Below, piece after piece: positions 10,500 through 22,702 of a stretch of 64,000 nucleotides of DNA. The position numbers and the translations under genes are program-made. The DNA comes from Flavobacteriaceae bacterium (GTDB taxonomy: Bacteria; Bacteroidota; Bacteroidia; Flavobacteriales; Flavobacteriaceae): NCBI GenBank assembly GCA_024743095.1, contig JANSXF010000007.1:1-64000 (forward strand). The letters are read 5' to 3'. The notes below the pieces were generated by a model that searched no databases, was not told the DNA's origin, and saw only the letters and a list, made by a program, of their open reading frames with translations. The number at the start of each line of letters is the position of its first letter. Position 1 is the first letter of the stretch.

Positions 10500-11690
10500 A
10501 TGAAGACGATAGACGATTTTAACTTCGAAGGAAAAAAAGCATTGATCAGAGTGGATTTCAACGTACCATTGGACGGGGATTTCAACGTGACCGACACCAG
10601 TCGGATCGATGCGGCAAAACCGACAATCCTAAAGGTTTTGGAAGATGGGGGCTCCGCAATTTTGATGAGCCATATGGGCAGACCAAAGGGAAAGGCCAAC
10701 CCGGAGATGTCGCTTTCGCACATTGTCGAGACCGTCTCGAACGTTGTCGGTGTACAGGTGAAATTTGCAGAGGACTGTGTGGGCACAAAGGCCGAGGAAG
10801 CGGTTGCCGCCTTAAAGAGCGGAGAGGTGCTTTTGTTGGAAAACCTTCGTTTTCATGCAGAGGAAGAGGCAGGTGATGAGTCCTTTGCGGAGGAATTGTC
10901 CAAGCACGGCGATGTTTACGTAAACGATGCATTCGGAACAGCGCACCGCGCACATGCCTCAACGACAATCGTGGCCAAGTTCTTCCCCGAGAACAAATGC
11001 TTCGGGTATTTGTTGGCCAAGGAAATCAAAGCCATCGATAAAGTGATGGAAACCGGGGAAAAACCGGTAACCGCAATTTTGGGCGGGGCCAAGGTGTCCT
11101 CAAAGATCACCATCATCGAAAACATACTGGACAAAGTGGACAACCTTATCATCGGAGGGGGAATGACCTATACTTTTGTAAAAGCCAAAGGCGGGAAAGT
11201 AGGCGACTCCATTTGTGAGGATGATAAAATGGAACTTGCTTTGGAGATCCTCAAACAGGCCGAGGCCAAAAATGTGAAAGTATACTTGCCGGTAGATGTT
11301 TTGGCCGCCGATGATTTCAGCAATACTGCCAATACGCAATTTGTGGAGGTAAACGAAATTCCCGATGGATGGCAAGGCCTGGATGCCGGACCAAAAACCC
11401 TGGAGATATTCAAACAAGTGATCTTGGCCTCCAAGACCATTCTATGGAACGGTCCCGTTGGTGTTTTTGAAATGGAAAACTTTGCCAAGGGCACCATCGC
11501 GGTGGGAAACTATATCGATGAGGCCACCCAAGGCGGGGCTTTCTCCCTTGTAGGGGGCGGGGACTCCGTTGCCGCGGTAAAACAATTCGGATTTCAGGAG
11601 AAGGTAAGCTACGTATCCACGGGAGGTGGGGCCATGTTGGAAAGCCTGGAAGGGAAAACCTTACCGGGCATCGCTGCAATATTGGGCTAA
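10500..11690 (+). CDS. pgk: Phosphoglycerate kinase
   Basis: A 396-residue enzyme of standard length that transfers phosphate between 1,3-bisphosphoglycerate and ADP in glycolysis. The N-terminal signature RVDFNVP is at residues 17-23, the substrate-binding Arg/His loop SHMGRPKGK near 57-65, and the nucleotide-binding loops SLVGGGDS (about 349-356) and STGGGA (about 373-378) near the C-terminus. It is monocistronic or leads the following envelope genes; the 117 bases between contain no clear terminator. Nothing unusual was noted. Confidence 0.98.
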
Positions 11691-11807
11691 GTCCCACGTT
11701 GTGAGTTATCGGGGCAAACGTTAAAAGTTGGAGAATTTTGTCTCTGGGCTTTATTCTTTCAGAAAAAAAAGCCATTTTCGTTCGCCCCGAAATCAAATCT
11801 TGTCCAA

Positions 11808-14909: not shown

Positions 14910-16961
14910 TTATTCGGCCACAAGGATAAACTCCGACCTTCTGTTGAGTCGATGTTGATCGGGCGGGCAAGGCGTTCCATTGGAGCAATCGTTCAACAAA
15001 CGTTCCTCGCCATACCCAACGGCGCTTAATACCCTTGCCGGGTCGATACCTTGTGAAACAATATAGTCACGAGTGGATTTGGCCCGTTTGTCCGATAAAT
15101 ATTTGTTGTAGGCCTCGGGTCCGATGGCATCGGTATGGGACTCAATTTTTAGGGAAAGTGTTTTGTTTTCCTTCAGTACGGTCACCAATTTATCCAGTTC
15201 TTGGGCATATGTCGGTGTAATTTTATAACTGTCAAACCCAAAATAGACATTGCTTGGCTGGTATACTTCTGTTATCGGTTCTTCTTTTACAACCTCCCTT
15301 AAGTACTGGCTCACCGAAATGTTTTCATTCTCCCGGGTCTGCACCGAAACGGTGTCGTCCACAAAACCATTTTTTGTGGCAACAACGGTGTAAGCTGTTG
15401 AGGGAGTCAGGTTTTTGAACAAATAGGTGCCGGTGGTATCGGAAACCGTATTGTTGAGCAAGGTTCCCGCCTTGCCATACAGGGAAATATCGGCCTCTTT
15501 CAGTGCCGCCCCGGATGCCTTGTTGGCAACTGAACCAACAATGGTGTTGAAGTTGGGAATGGATCTAAAGGAATAAATATCATCATCCCCTTTGCCCCCT
15601 TTGCGGTTGGATGCAAAATAACCCTGTTGGCCCGAAGGGTCGACAATATAGGAGAAATCGTCCCTATTGCTGTTGATGGGCCCGCCCATGTTTACACCGA
15701 CGCCAAAGGTCTCGTTTGTGCCATCCGACCTATACACATCCAGGCCTCCAAAGCCCATGGGCCTGTTGGAAGAAAAATAGAGCGCGTTTTGCGTCGCGTA
15801 AGGGAACATTTCCTTGGCAGAGGTGTTGACGGTCTGCCCAAGATTTTTTGGCTGGGAGAACGCGCCGTTTGCGTCGATATCCACTACATATATATCTGTT
15901 TCCCCATAACCTCCCGGTCTATCCGAAACGAAGTACATTTTTGTTCCATCCGGACTTACCGCCGGGTGGCCCGTGGAATAATTTTCACTATTAAAGGGAA
16001 GCTCCTCCGCCTTTGTCCATTGACCATCCTTAAACTCGGAACGATAGATCTTTAGATGGTTGATCCCGTTTTCGCCCCTTTTCAAACGTTTGCCATAGTT
16101 GTTCCTTGTAAAATAGATGGTTTTCTGGTCGGGGGTAAAGGACATGGAGGCCTCGTGATATTTGGTATTGATCTTTCTTGAAAATTTCTCCGGGGCGGAG
16201 AGGCCGCCATCTTCCCCTTTTTGGTGGGCCAGATAAAGGTCCAAAAAAGGTTGATTGGTCCAGCGATAACGCCGTGTTGTCAAAAAAGAGGTGTCCTTGG
16301 CCGAAGCATATACGATATCCGAGCCATTGTGGAACATCGGGGAAAAATCGGAATAAGGGGAATTGATCTCCAAATTTTTGATGGAAACAGTATAGGTGGC
16401 CTCCCAGGTATGGGTATCGACGTTGGCCAGTTCGTTTAAGGGCTCGTCCCTTTTCTGTCGCAAAATTTTGGTGAGCGAGGCCGCTCTTTGATATTTCCCG
16501 GTACCTTTCAAGGTCTGTGTGTAGTTGAACAAGGTGTCTTCCCGTATGCTATCCTTGTACAATAGGTGAAGTTCATGATACCACTGGTACGCTTTTTCCA
16601 GATTCCCGGCGTAGTAATGGGAATCACCGGCCCTCGATAGTAATTGTTGGGTGTGTTCTGCGTCGGTCTTTTCCAGGACCAGATCAAAAATGCGGGCCGC
16701 CTCGGCATACCACATCTTGTCAAAGTATTCGTTGCCTTTGTCGATAAGTTGGTCCGCGATTCCTCTTTTGCGAAGATACCTGTCCAGTTTTTTATCGTCC
16801 AGGCCATCGAGGTGCTTTACAAAGGCGGTAGTTTTTGGTTCTTTTGCCCGCGATTCGGTCTCGGATACTGAGGATGTTCCATCATACCCGGAAAGAGCAA
16901 GCTCTTGGGAAATACTCCCGAGCGAGCACAAAAGAAAAATAAGCAAGATCAGTTTTTTCAT
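14910..16961 (-). CDS. OmpA-family outer-membrane protein with PD40 beta-propeller
   Basis: About 683 residues when begun at MKKLILLIFLL (ATG 16961); the tracked start adds nine residues ahead of the signal peptide. The order is signal peptide, a helical TPR-like part (about 50-190), PD40/WD40-like propeller blades (SPDGTKMYFVSDRPGGYGETDIYVVD-like, about 200-465), a carboxypeptidase-regulatory-like beta domain (about 470-555), and a C-terminal OmpA domain (SHTDAIG, SDKRAKSTRDYI, NRRSEF) that binds peptidoglycan. Such proteins are usual in Bacteroidota and often pair with PorP/SprF proteins near type IX secretion; no such partner is next to it here. Confidence 0.9.
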   Translation of the reverse strand: MKKLILLIFLLCSLGSISQELALSGYDGTSSVSETESRAKEPKTTAFVKHLDGLDDKKLDRYLRKRGIADQLIDKGNEYFDKMWYAEAARIFDLVLEKTDAEHTQQLLSRAGDSHYYAGNLEKAYQWYHELHLLYKDSIREDTLFNYTQTLKGTGKYQRAASLTKILRQKRDEPLNELANVDTHTWEATYTVSIKNLEINSPYSDFSPMFHNGSDIVYASAKDTSFLTTRRYRWTNQPFLDLYLAHQKGEDGGLSAPEKFSRKINTKYHEASMSFTPDQKTIYFTRNNYGKRLKRGENGINHLKIYRSEFKDGQWTKAEELPFNSENYSTGHPAVSPDGTKMYFVSDRPGGYGETDIYVVDIDANGAFSQPKNLGQTVNTSAKEMFPYATQNALYFSSNRPMGFGGLDVYRSDGTNETFGVGVNMGGPINSNRDDFSYIVDPSGQQGYFASNRKGGKGDDDIYSFRSIPNFNTIVGSVANKASGAALKEADISLYGKAGTLLNNTVSDTTGTYLFKNLTPSTAYTVVATKNGFVDDTVSVQTRENENISVSQYLREVVKEEPITEVYQPSNVYFGFDSYKITPTYAQELDKLVTVLKENKTLSLKIESHTDAIGPEAYNKYLSDKRAKSTRDYIVSQGIDPARVLSAVGYGEERLLNDCSNGTPCPPDQHRLNRRSEFILVAE

Positions 16962-17178
16962 TACCACTCCATCTGCACAAACAAACACCTGATGCTTGTT
17001 TGGAGGTTAAGCATAGGGGGCCTAACAGTTTAGTTACAACCGCTAAAATAGGATAAGGTAATCGGGGTGATAATTTTTTGTTGTGAAAGGTTGAATATGC
17101 GGCACTGAACGCTTAAAAAGTGTTGTTGTTGTTCCAAAACTTTTTGTAAAACGCCTGTTTCAGGCCACAAAAGTCAAC

Positions 17179-18411: not shown

Positions 18412-19911
18412 ATGTCCCTAAAAGCATTTGCCGCCAAAATATTTGCCAATCGGATAGCCAAGAAAACCGAAAAATGGGTGAACCAACCTGTGAAGGCCCA
18501 ACAAAGGGTGTTCGACCACTTGGTCGGGCAGGGCAAGGGCACCGTTTTTGGGAAGGACCATCAGTTTCAAACCATTACATCCCACCAAGATTTTGTTGAG
18601 CGCGTTCCCATACGTGATTATGAGGAGTTAAAGGGGTACGTGCAGCAGATCATGGATGGAAAACAAGATGTGCTGTGGCCCGGAAAGCCCATCTATTTTG
18701 CAAAGACATCGGGAACCACCTCGGGCGCCAAATACATTCCCATTACCAAACCTTCCATCAAAAACCAGGTGGAAGCCTCCAGAAATGCCATTCTCAATTA
18801 CATACACGAAACGGGAAACGCCGATTTTGTGGATGGCCGGATGATTTTTTTACAGGGAAGCCCGGAGTTGGAGGAAAAGAACGGCATTAAACTGGGCCGC
18901 CTTTCCGGAATTTCAGCACATTACGTGCCCAATTATCTCCAAAAAAATAGACTGCCCAGTTGGGAGACCAATTGTATCGAGGATTGGGAGACCAAGGTGG
19001 ACAAGATCGTTGAGGAGACCAAGAAGGAGAATATGTCGGTAATCGCCGGGATTCCCTCATGGGTGCAGATGTATTTTGAAAAACTCAACACCAGGACAGG
19101 GAAAAAGGTCGGTGAACTCTTCAAAGAGTTCCAGTTGTTCATTTATGGAGGGGTAAATTATGAACCCTATCGCGCCAAATTTGAAAATCTTATCGGGAGA
19201 AAGGTGGACAGTATCGAATTGTTCCCGGCCAGCGAAGGGTTTTTTGCCTACCAGAATTCCCAAAAGGAAAAAGGAATGCTGTTGCTTTTGAACGCGGGCA
19301 TTTTTTATGAGTTCGTAAAGGCCGATGAATTTTTTGATGAGAACCCAAGGCGATTGACCATTGCCGATGTGGAACTGGGCGTTGATTATGCGATGGTAAT
19401 TTCCACGGATGCCGGACTTTGGGGATACAATCTGGGTGATACCGTTCGGTTTATTTCCAAGGATCCATATAAGATTGTGGTTTCGGGGCGCATCAAGCAC
19501 TTTATATCCGCCTTTGGGGAACACGTGATTGCCAAGGAAGTGGAAGAAGCGTTACAATTGGCCGTGGAACAGACCGATGCGTTGGTCAACGAATTTACCG
19601 TTGCTCCGCAAACCAATCCTGCGGAGGGAGAGCTGCCCTATCACGAATGGTTCATCGAATTTGAAAGGGAACCATCGGACATAAAAAGGTTTTTGGCCAT
19701 CATGGAGGAAAGCATGAAACGGCAGAACAGTTACTATTTTGACCTTATTGAGGGTAACATCCTCCAACCGCTGAAAGTAAGCAGTATCAAACCAAATGGT
19801 TTTCAGGATTATATGAAATCGATCGGTAAACTGGGAGGGCAGAACAAGGTCCAACGCCTTGCCAACGACCGAAAAGTGGCCGACGGACTCCAACCATTTA
19901 AAATTAGTTGA
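18412..19911 (+). CDS. GH3 family acyl-adenylate/amide synthetase-like protein
   Basis: 499 residues, full length for the bacterial GH3 family. The ANL-type phosphate loop is visible as KTSGTTSGAKYIP near residues 97-109, with later motifs ELFPASEG and LGDTVRF. Plant GH3 enzymes join amino acids to auxin or jasmonate; bacterial members are common in Bacteroidota and their substrates are unknown. It starts directly after the M23 stop (TAAATG), an arrangement that suggests translational coupling, although the two functions have no evident link. No signal peptide is present, so it is cytoplasmic. Confidence 0.9.
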   Translation: MSLKAFAAKIFANRIAKKTEKWVNQPVKAQQRVFDHLVGQGKGTVFGKDHQFQTITSHQDFVERVPIRDYEELKGYVQQIMDGKQDVLWPGKPIYFAKTSGTTSGAKYIPITKPSIKNQVEASRNAILNYIHETGNADFVDGRMIFLQGSPELEEKNGIKLGRLSGISAHYVPNYLQKNRLPSWETNCIEDWETKVDKIVEETKKENMSVIAGIPSWVQMYFEKLNTRTGKKVGELFKEFQLFIYGGVNYEPYRAKFENLIGRKVDSIELFPASEGFFAYQNSQKEKGMLLLLNAGIFYEFVKADEFFDENPRRLTIADVELGVDYAMVISTDAGLWGYNLGDTVRFISKDPYKIVVSGRIKHFISAFGEHVIAKEVEEALQLAVEQTDALVNEFTVAPQTNPAEGELPYHEWFIEFEREPSDIKRFLAIMEESMKRQNSYYFDLIEGNILQPLKVSSIKPNGFQDYMKSIGKLGGQNKVQRLANDRKVADGLQPFKIS

Positions 19912-19961: not shown

Positions 19962-21650
19962 ATGATGGCAACAGAAGTAAAACAGACTACCAGGGCACAG
20001 GAGTCCACCAATGCAATTGAACGATTGTACATTACCATGCGCCATTTGCTCAATAGAGGATTTTATAAGCCCTCCGGCGTTTCGGGCAATGCACTGAGAA
20101 CCGCACTTTTGCTGCTCCGCCCCGAGATTTACGGAACCATTGCGGAAGATAAGGCCGAACTCAACGGACTGATCTATGTATTGGAACGCTTGCCCGAAGG
20201 GATAGAAGAGTGCCGTTTCATCAATCTGACCTCCGATGAAGGGTTTGGAAAATCACACCTAAGGCCCATTGTTCCCCCAAAACGAAGAAGAAACTGCTAT
20301 CGCATCGACGATGAGCAGATGAACATCGAGATCACACGAGGACGTAGCGACATTTATGATATCCTGACCCACCTTACCTTTTTGTTCGTGGAGTCCGGTA
20401 AAATCTCCAAACGGGTTTTGGTGGATGACGGTACCTCTACCATAAGGGACTGGGACAAGCTGAGCGAGTTTGTTCTTTTGGAGGAAAAGGACAATGAACA
20501 GAGAGAAGTGGCCTTGATTCATTGTGCCAATATTTTAGGAAGAACTTTTGATGAGGTGGTCGATATTGAAAATAAGCTCAAGACCCCCGAAGATCCAGAC
20601 CGCTTTTTGAACGTGATCTATTGGCTCGGTAAATTGGCCATTGAGGAGGAGACCACGGGCAACAAAAGGACCATCACCTTTAGTCCGTTGCTCAGGGAAC
20701 GTTTGGGCCACCATATACATGGGGAAAAGTGGGCCGATAAGATCAAGGCCACGCTCAAGGAACACAACTTGATGGATAGGCCCCTACATATTATCAGTGC
20801 CAATATGCACAGCGTAATGAACTCGCTCTTTGCCAAAAAAGCGTTGGCAGAGGAGTTCCCGGACAACGAATCGTTGGATATTTATGAGGCCTTGGGTTCC
20901 GACAAGAACAGGTCGCTCAACAAAAAGGTAAAGAACTTGGCCCAGAGCAATGGGATGATCTTTCTGGAAGACGAGTCCGGCGCCAACATAGACGTTCAGA
21001 TTTTTGATACCGCCAAATTTGGAAGCAAAAGCTGTTGTTACCAACTCCCGGCAGATGTCACTGAAGAAGAAAAACCCGTTATATTTGTGATGGACTACGC
21101 CTTCGGCGAGCAGGCCTACGAGACCATTGATGAGCTTTTAAAGCCTATGGAAGATGGTAAGGAGAAGGTTTTTCTTAATGTAGATTCGGTCTCGATCATG
21201 GGAAAAGCGGGCATCTTGGAAGGGGGCAAGGGAGATTTGATGATTCCTTCGGCCCATATTTTCGAGGGCACGGCGGATAATTATCCTTTCAACAATGAAC
21301 TCAGCGGTTCCGATTTTGAAGGGCACGGATTGAAAGTAATGGAAGGGACCATGGTGACCGTATTGGGCACATCGCTTCAAAATAGGGACATTCTCCAGTT
21401 TTTCAACGAATCCACCTGGAACGTGATTGGGTTGGAAATGGAGGGTGTGCACTATCAAAAGGCGATACAATCGGCTTCCCAGATACGAAAGAGCATAAAA
21501 AAGGATGTGAAGGTAAGATATGCTTACTACGCATCGGACAATCCTTTGGAGACCGGAAGCACCTTGGCTTCGGGCGGACTGGGAACAACAGGGGTAAAGC
21601 CCACATATTTGATAACGGACAGAATCTTAAAACAACTATTCAATTCATAG
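19962..21650 (+). CDS. DUF6909 family protein with phosphorylase-like C-terminal part
   Basis: About 562 residues from the ATG pair at 19962. The N-terminal half is helical and has the family look (TNAIERLYITMRHLLNRGFYKPSG). The C-terminal part (about 350-560) contains a glycine-rich SIMGKAGILEGGKGDLMIP segment and WNVIGLEMEGVHYQKA near 485-500. Both resemble the nucleoside phosphorylase/nucleosidase fold, where an EMEG loop binds the ribose. The family is conserved in Bacteroidota and its function is unknown. The Wzz-like gene starts 2 bases after the stop, so it may be transcribed into the polysaccharide locus. The phosphorylase likeness is my reading, not a search result. Confidence 0.75.
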   Translation: MMATEVKQTTRAQESTNAIERLYITMRHLLNRGFYKPSGVSGNALRTALLLLRPEIYGTIAEDKAELNGLIYVLERLPEGIEECRFINLTSDEGFGKSHLRPIVPPKRRRNCYRIDDEQMNIEITRGRSDIYDILTHLTFLFVESGKISKRVLVDDGTSTIRDWDKLSEFVLLEEKDNEQREVALIHCANILGRTFDEVVDIENKLKTPEDPDRFLNVIYWLGKLAIEEETTGNKRTITFSPLLRERLGHHIHGEKWADKIKATLKEHNLMDRPLHIISANMHSVMNSLFAKKALAEEFPDNESLDIYEALGSDKNRSLNKKVKNLAQSNGMIFLEDESGANIDVQIFDTAKFGSKSCCYQLPADVTEEEKPVIFVMDYAFGEQAYETIDELLKPMEDGKEKVFLNVDSVSIMGKAGILEGGKGDLMIPSAHIFEGTADNYPFNNELSGSDFEGHGLKVMEGTMVTVLGTSLQNRDILQFFNESTWNVIGLEMEGVHYQKAIQSASQIRKSIKKDVKVRYAYYASDNPLETGSTLASGGLGTTGVKPTYLITDRILKQLFNS

Positions 21651-21652
21651 GT

Positions 21653-22702
21653 ATGGCAGACCAACCAGTAAATCAGAACAATTCGGATGAAATCGATTTG
21701 GGACAATTGTTCCAGATGATCGGAAGGGGATTTCAAAAGTTCTTCAATTTCATCGGCAGCATTTTTAAAGGGGTATTCCATCTGATCATGCTGTTTCTTC
21801 TTTTTGTCCAAAAGAACATTATTGTCATAGGAGCGGCAGTAATTATCGGAGGCATTGGAGGATTTGTTTTGGATAGAATCACTCCTGAGAAATATGTTTC
21901 CAGAATGGTGGTGGAACCAAATTTTAATAGTGTACAACAACTGTACAACAACATTGCCTTTTACAATGATTTGGCAGATGCACAGGATTCTGTTGCCCTG
22001 GCCACTGCGCTGAACATCACAGAGCATGAAGCGGCCAGTATCAAAGAAATTTTCACGGACTCTTATTCGGACGAAAATCAAAAAATCAAGCTTTTTGACG
22101 AGTTTATCAGAGAGTTGGACACCACCACGGTAAAAGCAATAGATTACGAGAATTATCTGAAAAACTTTAATTCCATGGATGCCAGGTTCCATCAGATTTC
22201 TTTGGTTAGCACCAATAACAGAGTAGCAAAGAAAACCCAGCCAGCTATAATAAACTCTATCTCAGTTAATGAGTATTTCAAGCTTCAGAAAAGAATCAAC
22301 GATGAAAACCTGGACCTTCAGGAAGAAATCTATAAAAAACAGTTGGTCGAAATTGACTCTCTCCAAAGTCTTTATCGAACCGTTTTGGTAAAAGAAGCTG
22401 ATAAGCCTATGCAGGGGACCAGTATCAACATGGCAGAAACAGGGGAGTCAAGAAGTCGAGAGCTCGCCCTGGTCCAAGAAAAAGATGTTTTAAAGGAAAA
22501 GTTGGTAGAATTGAACCAAGAACGGGCAAACAAGTCCACCATCATTAATGTAATCAGTGATTTCCCAACTCGTGGAGTTGAACAAAAAGGGATTTGGAAG
22601 AGTTACAAGTTTAAACTTCCACTGGTTTTGTTGGCCTTGGTTTTTGGTGTTTTGGCCTTGCTGGCCCTTAATAAATTCTTAAAAACGTATAACCAAGAAT
22701 AG
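21653..22702 (+). CDS. Wzz-like polysaccharide chain-length/export membrane protein
   Basis: 349 residues. Hydrophobic segments lie near residues 40-52 and 55-75 and again near 322-343. Between them is a large extracytoplasmic, mostly helical domain with coiled-coil character (about 215-305). This two-helix plan is that of Wzz/GumC co-polymerases that set polysaccharide length. The position at the head of the dTDP-rhamnose and polysaccharide genes supports the role. Sequence identity to classic Wzz is not obvious, and no tyrosine-kinase domain is fused. The start is 2 bases after the DUF6909 stop. Residue ranges are approximate. Confidence 0.6.
   Translation: MADQPVNQNNSDEIDLGQLFQMIGRGFQKFFNFIGSIFKGVFHLIMLFLLFVQKNIIVIGAAVIIGGIGGFVLDRITPEKYVSRMVVEPNFNSVQQLYNNIAFYNDLADAQDSVALATALNITEHEAASIKEIFTDSYSDENQKIKLFDEFIRELDTTTVKAIDYENYLKNFNSMDARFHQISLVSTNNRVAKKTQPAIINSISVNEYFKLQKRINDENLDLQEEIYKKQLVEIDSLQSLYRTVLVKEADKPMQGTSINMAETGESRSRELALVQEKDVLKEKLVELNQERANKSTIINVISDFPTRGVEQKGIWKSYKFKLPLVLLALVFGVLALLALNKFLKTYNQE

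Follow-up and report, generated by a model that had tools for sequence, protein, structure and literature searches.

The DUF6909 protein of Flavobacteriaceae is probably a strongly diverged NP-I nucleosidase that seemingly replaces AMP nucleosidase

The window analyzed in this work, a stretch of 64,000 nucleotides from a Flavobacteriaceae genome, contains a full-length open reading frame on its + strand, which starts at the ATG at 19962 or at 19965 and stops at 21650. Relatives with 96-98% identity point to a genome of the Flagellimonas/Allomuricauda type. The encoded protein is a member of the DUF6909 family (PF21850; E 6.6e-62, 210 bits, above the curated cut-off of 27 bits), whose entry carries no assigned function, and a literature search for DUF6909 found no paper mentioning the family. 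Its architecture consists of a helical N-terminal half and a C-terminal half with a predicted nucleoside phosphorylase-I (NP-I) fold. Residues are numbered here from the codon at 19974 (residue 1), and adding four gives the numbering from the ATG at 19962. The features considered below, several of which are described by their counterparts in AMP nucleosidase (AMN), are the following:

18412 to 19911, + strand: GH3-family adenylating enzyme, directly upstream of DUF6909 (PF03321, E 8e-38); context only
19962 to 21650, + strand: DUF6909 protein of about 562 aa (open reading frame, PF21850 match, structural model)
19962 to 20759, + strand: N-terminal half, residues 1-262, mostly helical, with no recognised fold
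20787 to 20813, + strand: HIISANMHS, residues 272-280, first beta-strand and loop (strand 271-276 in the model)
21090 to 21116, + strand: MDYAFGEQA, residues 373-381, putative counterpart of the AMN glycine loop NFGMGSANA in the hhalign and BLASTP register
21198 to 21236, + strand: MGKAGILEGGKGD, residues 409-421, putative counterpart of AMN GKCGGL..GD
21264 to 21284, + strand: EGTADNY, residues 431-437, putative counterpart of EGTSNDY in short Bacteroidota AMN
21366 to 21383, + strand: GTSLQN, residues 465-470, six positions identical in 133/133 sequences, near the place of AMN R381 and W383
21432 to 21446, + strand: LEMEG, residues 487-491, putative counterpart of AMN D403-M404-E405
21525 to 21548, + strand: YYASDNPL, residues 518-525, with S521-D522 as putative counterpart of AMN S427-D428

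An earlier note on this DNA had tied the putative enzyme to the adjacent polysaccharide locus. In Flavobacteriaceae, the order of M23 peptidase, GH3 enzyme, DUF6909, Wzz-like membrane protein and polysaccharide genes is near-constant, with the GH3 enzyme nearly always adjoining DUF6909, and the M23-GH3-DUF6909 order also occurs in families f105 and f111. The adjacency of the GH3 enzyme is absent from most other families examined, and in the genomes examined in families f2, f5, f8, f51, f108 and f110, DUF6909 lies elsewhere and has none of these neighbours. Because of this varying context, we rejected both the polysaccharide locus and the GH3 enzyme as functional evidence; the adjacency is a local gene-order habit, and the tie drawn by the earlier note was lost once families other than Flavobacteriaceae, f105 and f111 were considered. 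The GH3 enzyme itself resembles OlsH, a lyso-ornithine lipid synthetase, with a score of 391.9 bits where the cut-off of that model is 620. Downstream of DUF6909, at 21653-22702, a 349-aa protein shows a weak match to Wzz chain-length determinants (E 0.0014, below the cut-off); its position is conserved across Flavobacteriaceae, and its gene is probably the start of the polysaccharide locus. On the opposite strand, a 692-aa protein with TPR, PD40 repeats, carboxypeptidase-regulatory-like and OmpA domains (14913-16988, - strand) precedes the M23-GH3-DUF6909 run, and this place is conserved in many relatives. In one related locus (L065), part of the DUF6909/Wzz-like region recurs in inverted orientation (11281-11760 and neighbours) near the locus end, at the end of the contig; this second copy is probably an assembly artefact.

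DUF6909 is a single-copy, highly conserved gene, present in 31/31 Flavobacteriaceae genomes of our order sample and in many genomes of family f2 in the same sample. An apparent DUF6909 fusion in genome G460, with a frame of 910 aa, was rejected, since the open frame merely extends upstream of the real start. To describe conservation, the window protein was aligned with 132 relatives from several Bacteroidia families that are 51-98% identical to it, giving 133 sequences. MGKAG (409-413), which opens the Gly-rich segment MGKAGIL..GGKGD of the window protein, EMEG (488-491, 21435-21446) and S521-D522 are identical at each position in all 133 sequences, as are residues 374-379 and N277. The Gly-rich stretch and the EMEG loop singled out by the earlier note are therefore real: with their key positions identical in 133/133 sequences, the MGKAG and EMEG segments define the DUF6909 family beyond chance. 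The invariant K411, H247, GTSLQN and T530, together with N523 (132/133), form a set peculiar to DUF6909.

An AlphaFold2 model of the window protein, built on a shallow alignment of 66 sequences (67-91% identity), reached a mean pLDDT of 81.8 and a pTM of 0.68. When this model was compared with the PDB using Foldseek, 459 matches were obtained at E <= 10, 324 of them at E <= 0.001, and the best 50 of the 459 were all NP-I enzymes (50/50, prob 1.00, E 1.4e-6 to 3.8e-5). The first rank was occupied by Salmonella AMP nucleosidase (2guw, prob 1.00), and the order of the matches was AMN first, followed by MTA/SAH nucleosidase, uridine phosphorylase and purine nucleoside phosphorylases; in the Foldseek viral library, the three significant matches were each a nucleoside or purine phosphorylase. 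Judging from the predicted structure, the C-terminal half of DUF6909 almost certainly has the NP-I fold, as the earlier note had anticipated in calling it nucleoside-phosphorylase-like; on the two points where that proposal could have failed, the structure comparison gave the NP-I fold and EMEG proved invariant. The fold is clear in the model, yet the divergence of DUF6909 is large, with TM-scores normalised to the shorter NP-I targets of about 0.5-0.66 and an rmsd of 5-6 A. Sequence searches with the full protein against Pfam, NCBIfam and PDB sequences gave no PF01048, NCBIfam or credible PDB nucleoside phosphorylase match. When the C-terminal half alone was searched against Pfam, PF01048 appeared as the second match in the expected register (E 0.18, 11.6 bits vs a cut-off of 25.1). 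The predicted fold is that of the superfamily and the PF01048 score stays far below the cut-off, which shows that PF01048 overlooks a whole branch of its own superfamily.

With regard to the branch of NP-I enzymes that lies closest, the DUF6909 profile was compared with four NP-I sets from related genomes (AMN, MTA/SAH nucleosidase, DeoD and Udp). AMN gave the highest and longest match, with a score of 27 over 107 collinear columns, vs scores of 18 (MTA/SAH nucleosidase), 17 (DeoD) and 16 (Udp). Column-shuffled AMN controls matched the AMN score in 1/100, 0/60 and 2/50 trials, and we regard the AMN match as supporting, not decisive. Such profile scores are weak on their own, and the full-length AMN profile gave a chance-level score against DUF6909. 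A BLASTP comparison of the window domain with short AMN gave a register identical to that of the profile alignment, pairing GKAGIL with GKCGGL, EGTADNY with EGTSNDY, LEMEG with IDMET, and ASDNPL with VSDQPM.

In Klebsiella AMN, N205, W383, M404, E405 and D428 hold the base and the sugar, R381 and K436 hold the phosphate together with H188/Y189 from the neighbouring chain, and M404, E405 and D428 are the only ones common to the other NP-I structures compared (PMC9584410). These substrate-contact residues are all conserved in 41/41 sequences of our AMN set, except H188, which is R or H. DUF6909 residues N277, M489, E490 and D522, each identical in 133/133 sequences, match AMN N205, M404, E405 and D428 (each 41/41), the match of N277 being made by motif and strand position, without superposition. 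Given that only the Met, the Glu and the Asp recur in the other NP-I structures, the invariant Asn of DUF6909 is AMN-like. No counterparts of AMN R381, W383 and K436, conserved in 41/41 AMN sequences, are recognisable in the 133 DUF6909 sequences. Before the first strand, G245 and H247 are invariant and H246 nearly so, at a spacing to the Asn that is about 14 residues off that of AMN H188/Y189. Searches of NCBIfam with the full protein and with the C-terminal half gave no match to TIGR01717 or TIGR01721 (AMN) or to TIGR01704 (MTA/SAH nucleosidase), and TIGR01717 has no match in the window's own genome. Because the AMN family models fail and three AMN residues are absent, we do not file DUF6909 as a member of AMN; its nearest relative is AMP nucleosidase, not a phosphorylase or MTA/SAH nucleosidase.

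One position bears on the type of reaction. Where DUF6909 has residue 408 (I in 120 and V in 13 of the 133 members), the DeoD and Udp proteins of its own genome carry Arg (RVGSAG and RIGTSG). This Arg, which precedes the G(S/T).G loop by two residues, is phosphate-binding in phosphorolytic enzymes. The same position is without Arg in the hydrolases E. coli MTAN (NTGSAG) and AMN (MIGHCG). The presence of I or V instead of Arg favours hydrolysis over phosphorolysis, which suggests, as far as these residues can tell, that DUF6909 is of the hydrolase type and not phosphorolytic.

Our study also identified a pattern of exclusion between DUF6909 and AMN. In the phylum sample (297 genomes), DUF6909 is present in 44 genomes and an AMN-like gene in 120; in the class sample (149 genomes), the numbers are 10 and 107; and in the order sample (198 genomes), 74 genomes carry DUF6909 and 32 carry AMN above the curated cut-off, with an overlap of 0 in all three. 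The hypergeometric chance of zero overlap is 1e-11, 1e-6 and 6e-8 for phylum, class and order, respectively, values that overstate the case, as the genomes are related and phylogeny enters into the exclusion counts. More telling than these sample-wide counts is the exclusion within families: f5, f8, f51 and f108 each hold DUF6909 genomes and AMN genomes, none with both genes, and in f108 DUF6909 occurs in 5 genomes and AMN in 20, never together. As a control, MTA/SAH nucleosidase is found above the cut-off in 6/149 genomes, two of which carry DUF6909; because of this co-occurrence, the exclusion is not general to NP-I genes. DeoD, the hexameric purine nucleoside phosphorylase, is above the cut-off in 37 genomes of the order sample, all of which have DUF6909 (37/37) and none AMN, a distribution that gives a hint of purine salvage in this order coming in two styles. 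DeoD is lacking from half of the DUF6909 genomes, among them 5/5 in f108. We considered DeoD as the cause of the absence of AMN and rejected it, since this explanation fails in f108, whose DUF6909 genomes lack DeoD as well as AMN, and in genus g2, where DeoD is mostly missing.

On the basis of the conserved residues and the predicted structure, DUF6909 is very likely an active nucleosidase or phosphorylase. Our overall reading is that it is probably a strongly diverged NP-I nucleosidase, seemingly replacing AMN, with an AMP-nucleosidase-like reaction as the best guess. It would act as a hydrolase-type N-glycosidase that cuts a purine nucleotide or nucleoside between base and ribose; the candidate reaction is AMP + H2O -> adenine + ribose 5-phosphate, although AMP as the main substrate is a tentative assignment by analogy, somewhat short of an even chance. 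Catalysis would take place in the C-terminal half, where M489/E490 may hold the ribose, N277 may touch the base and the sugar, and D522 may protonate the leaving purine, while the N-terminal helical half would regulate or assemble the enzyme. DUF6909 would thereby occupy the role of the short AMN carried by other Bacteroidia. A more specific version, in which DUF6909 is a second, strongly diverged form of AMN with a new regulatory N-terminal domain and has taken over from the standard enzyme on several occasions within Bacteroidia, all sampled Flavobacteriaceae included, is possible, and we put it forward with reserve. The NP-I placement leads to a concrete and cheap assay. If the replacement of AMN is true, a missing purine-salvage step would be filled in a major marine and soil lineage, and AMN would have given way on several occasions to a form whose N-terminal module is different.

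The missing counterparts of R381, W383 and K436, together with the invariants of DUF6909 itself (K411, GTSLQN, T530, and N523 in 132/133), would fit an active NP-I enzyme that has not replaced AMN and whose substrate is another one: a nucleoside, a nucleotide that is modified or carries a sugar, or a product of cofactor breakdown. As DeoD likewise separates from AMN, the exclusion may reflect the two purine-salvage styles rather than a one-for-one swap. Against this, AMN is the best NP-I subfamily by fold rank and profile, the GK.G and EGTSNDY/EGTADNY motifs are shared with short AMN, and the DUF6909 genomes of f108 lack both DeoD and AMN; we consider this alternative unlikely.

The N-terminal half, modelled separately (pLDDT 76.5), had no PDB match by Foldseek at E <= 0.001, the best one reaching E 0.21 at prob 0.13, which agrees with the novel helical half described in the earlier note. 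It contains invariant or near-invariant basic residues (R104-R106, R110 and R124). Two candidate relationships were tried and rejected. First, homing-endonuclease matches in the PDB sequence search (I-CreI, E 0.004 and worse) were attributed to chance. Second, a PPK.R...ITR...L..L pattern noticed by eye had suggested homology to the N-terminal domain of AMN, but the profile score was at chance level, with 11/60 shuffles as good, and there was no fold match; no AMN appears among the fold matches listed for this half, and Pfam gave no match to PF10423 (AMNp_N) in DUF6909. By analogy, this half probably serves in regulation or assembly, as an analogue of the AMN N-terminal domain, homology to it being kept only as a lead. 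That it is also extremely conserved, with its basic residues invariant, and that several AMN substrate contacts are missing from DUF6909, could mean that the NP-I domain binds a ligand without catalysis, for example as a nucleotide sensor controlling the N-terminal half; nevertheless, 133/133 sequences agree in the catalytic Asp, in the Met-Glu that binds ribose and in the segments around them, which is unusual for a degenerate enzyme and makes a sensor improbable. Finally, it is highly improbable that the NP-I resemblance is an alpha/beta coincidence and that the C-terminal half folds otherwise, as might be argued from the shallow model alignment and from sequence searches that alone give nothing above cut-off, considering the 324 PDB matches at E <= 0.001, the best 50 listed being all NP-I at prob 1.00, and motifs that, between the glycine loop and the SD motif, follow one another in the order seen in AMN.

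Our reading of DUF6909 as an AMN-like nucleosidase can be placed beside three known systems. MTA/SAH nucleosidase (TIGR01704) has the NP-I fold and high-ranking Foldseek matches; it carries VEMEA vs LEMEG in DUF6909, the SD motif is common to both, and neither has Arg before the GSAG/GKAG loop. It differs in that its profile match to DUF6909 spans 15 residues and in that the two genes co-occur in two genomes. Proteobacterial AMN (TIGR01717; PF10423 + PF01048; 1t8s, 2guw, 7uwq), the top Foldseek match of DUF6909, has an N-terminal module and a C-terminal NP-I domain as DUF6909 does, and its N205, M404, E405 and D428 are matched, whereas the N-terminal modules of the two share no similarity by profile or fold, and PF10423 is unmatched. 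The short Bacteroidota AMN (TIGR01721; structure 1ybf), on which a literature search for Bacteroidota AMP nucleosidase found nothing useful, has the NP-I fold in common with DUF6909 and shares with it the collinear motifs GK.G.L, GD..[LI]P/IP, EGT..[DN]Y, [IL][DE]ME and.SD.P[LM], the Asn after the first strand and the catalytic Asp; like DUF6909, it has no fixed gene neighbours in the genomes examined, and no genome in our samples has both. In contrast to DUF6909, it is about 258 aa long, without the N-terminal half, and has the counterparts of R381/W383/K436. As a separate observation, the AMN-like gene of locus L172 (genome G043) lies in a 495-aa open frame that has about 239 residues before the nucleosidase domain, unlike the usual 258-aa form; this stretch may be an extension or a mere open frame.
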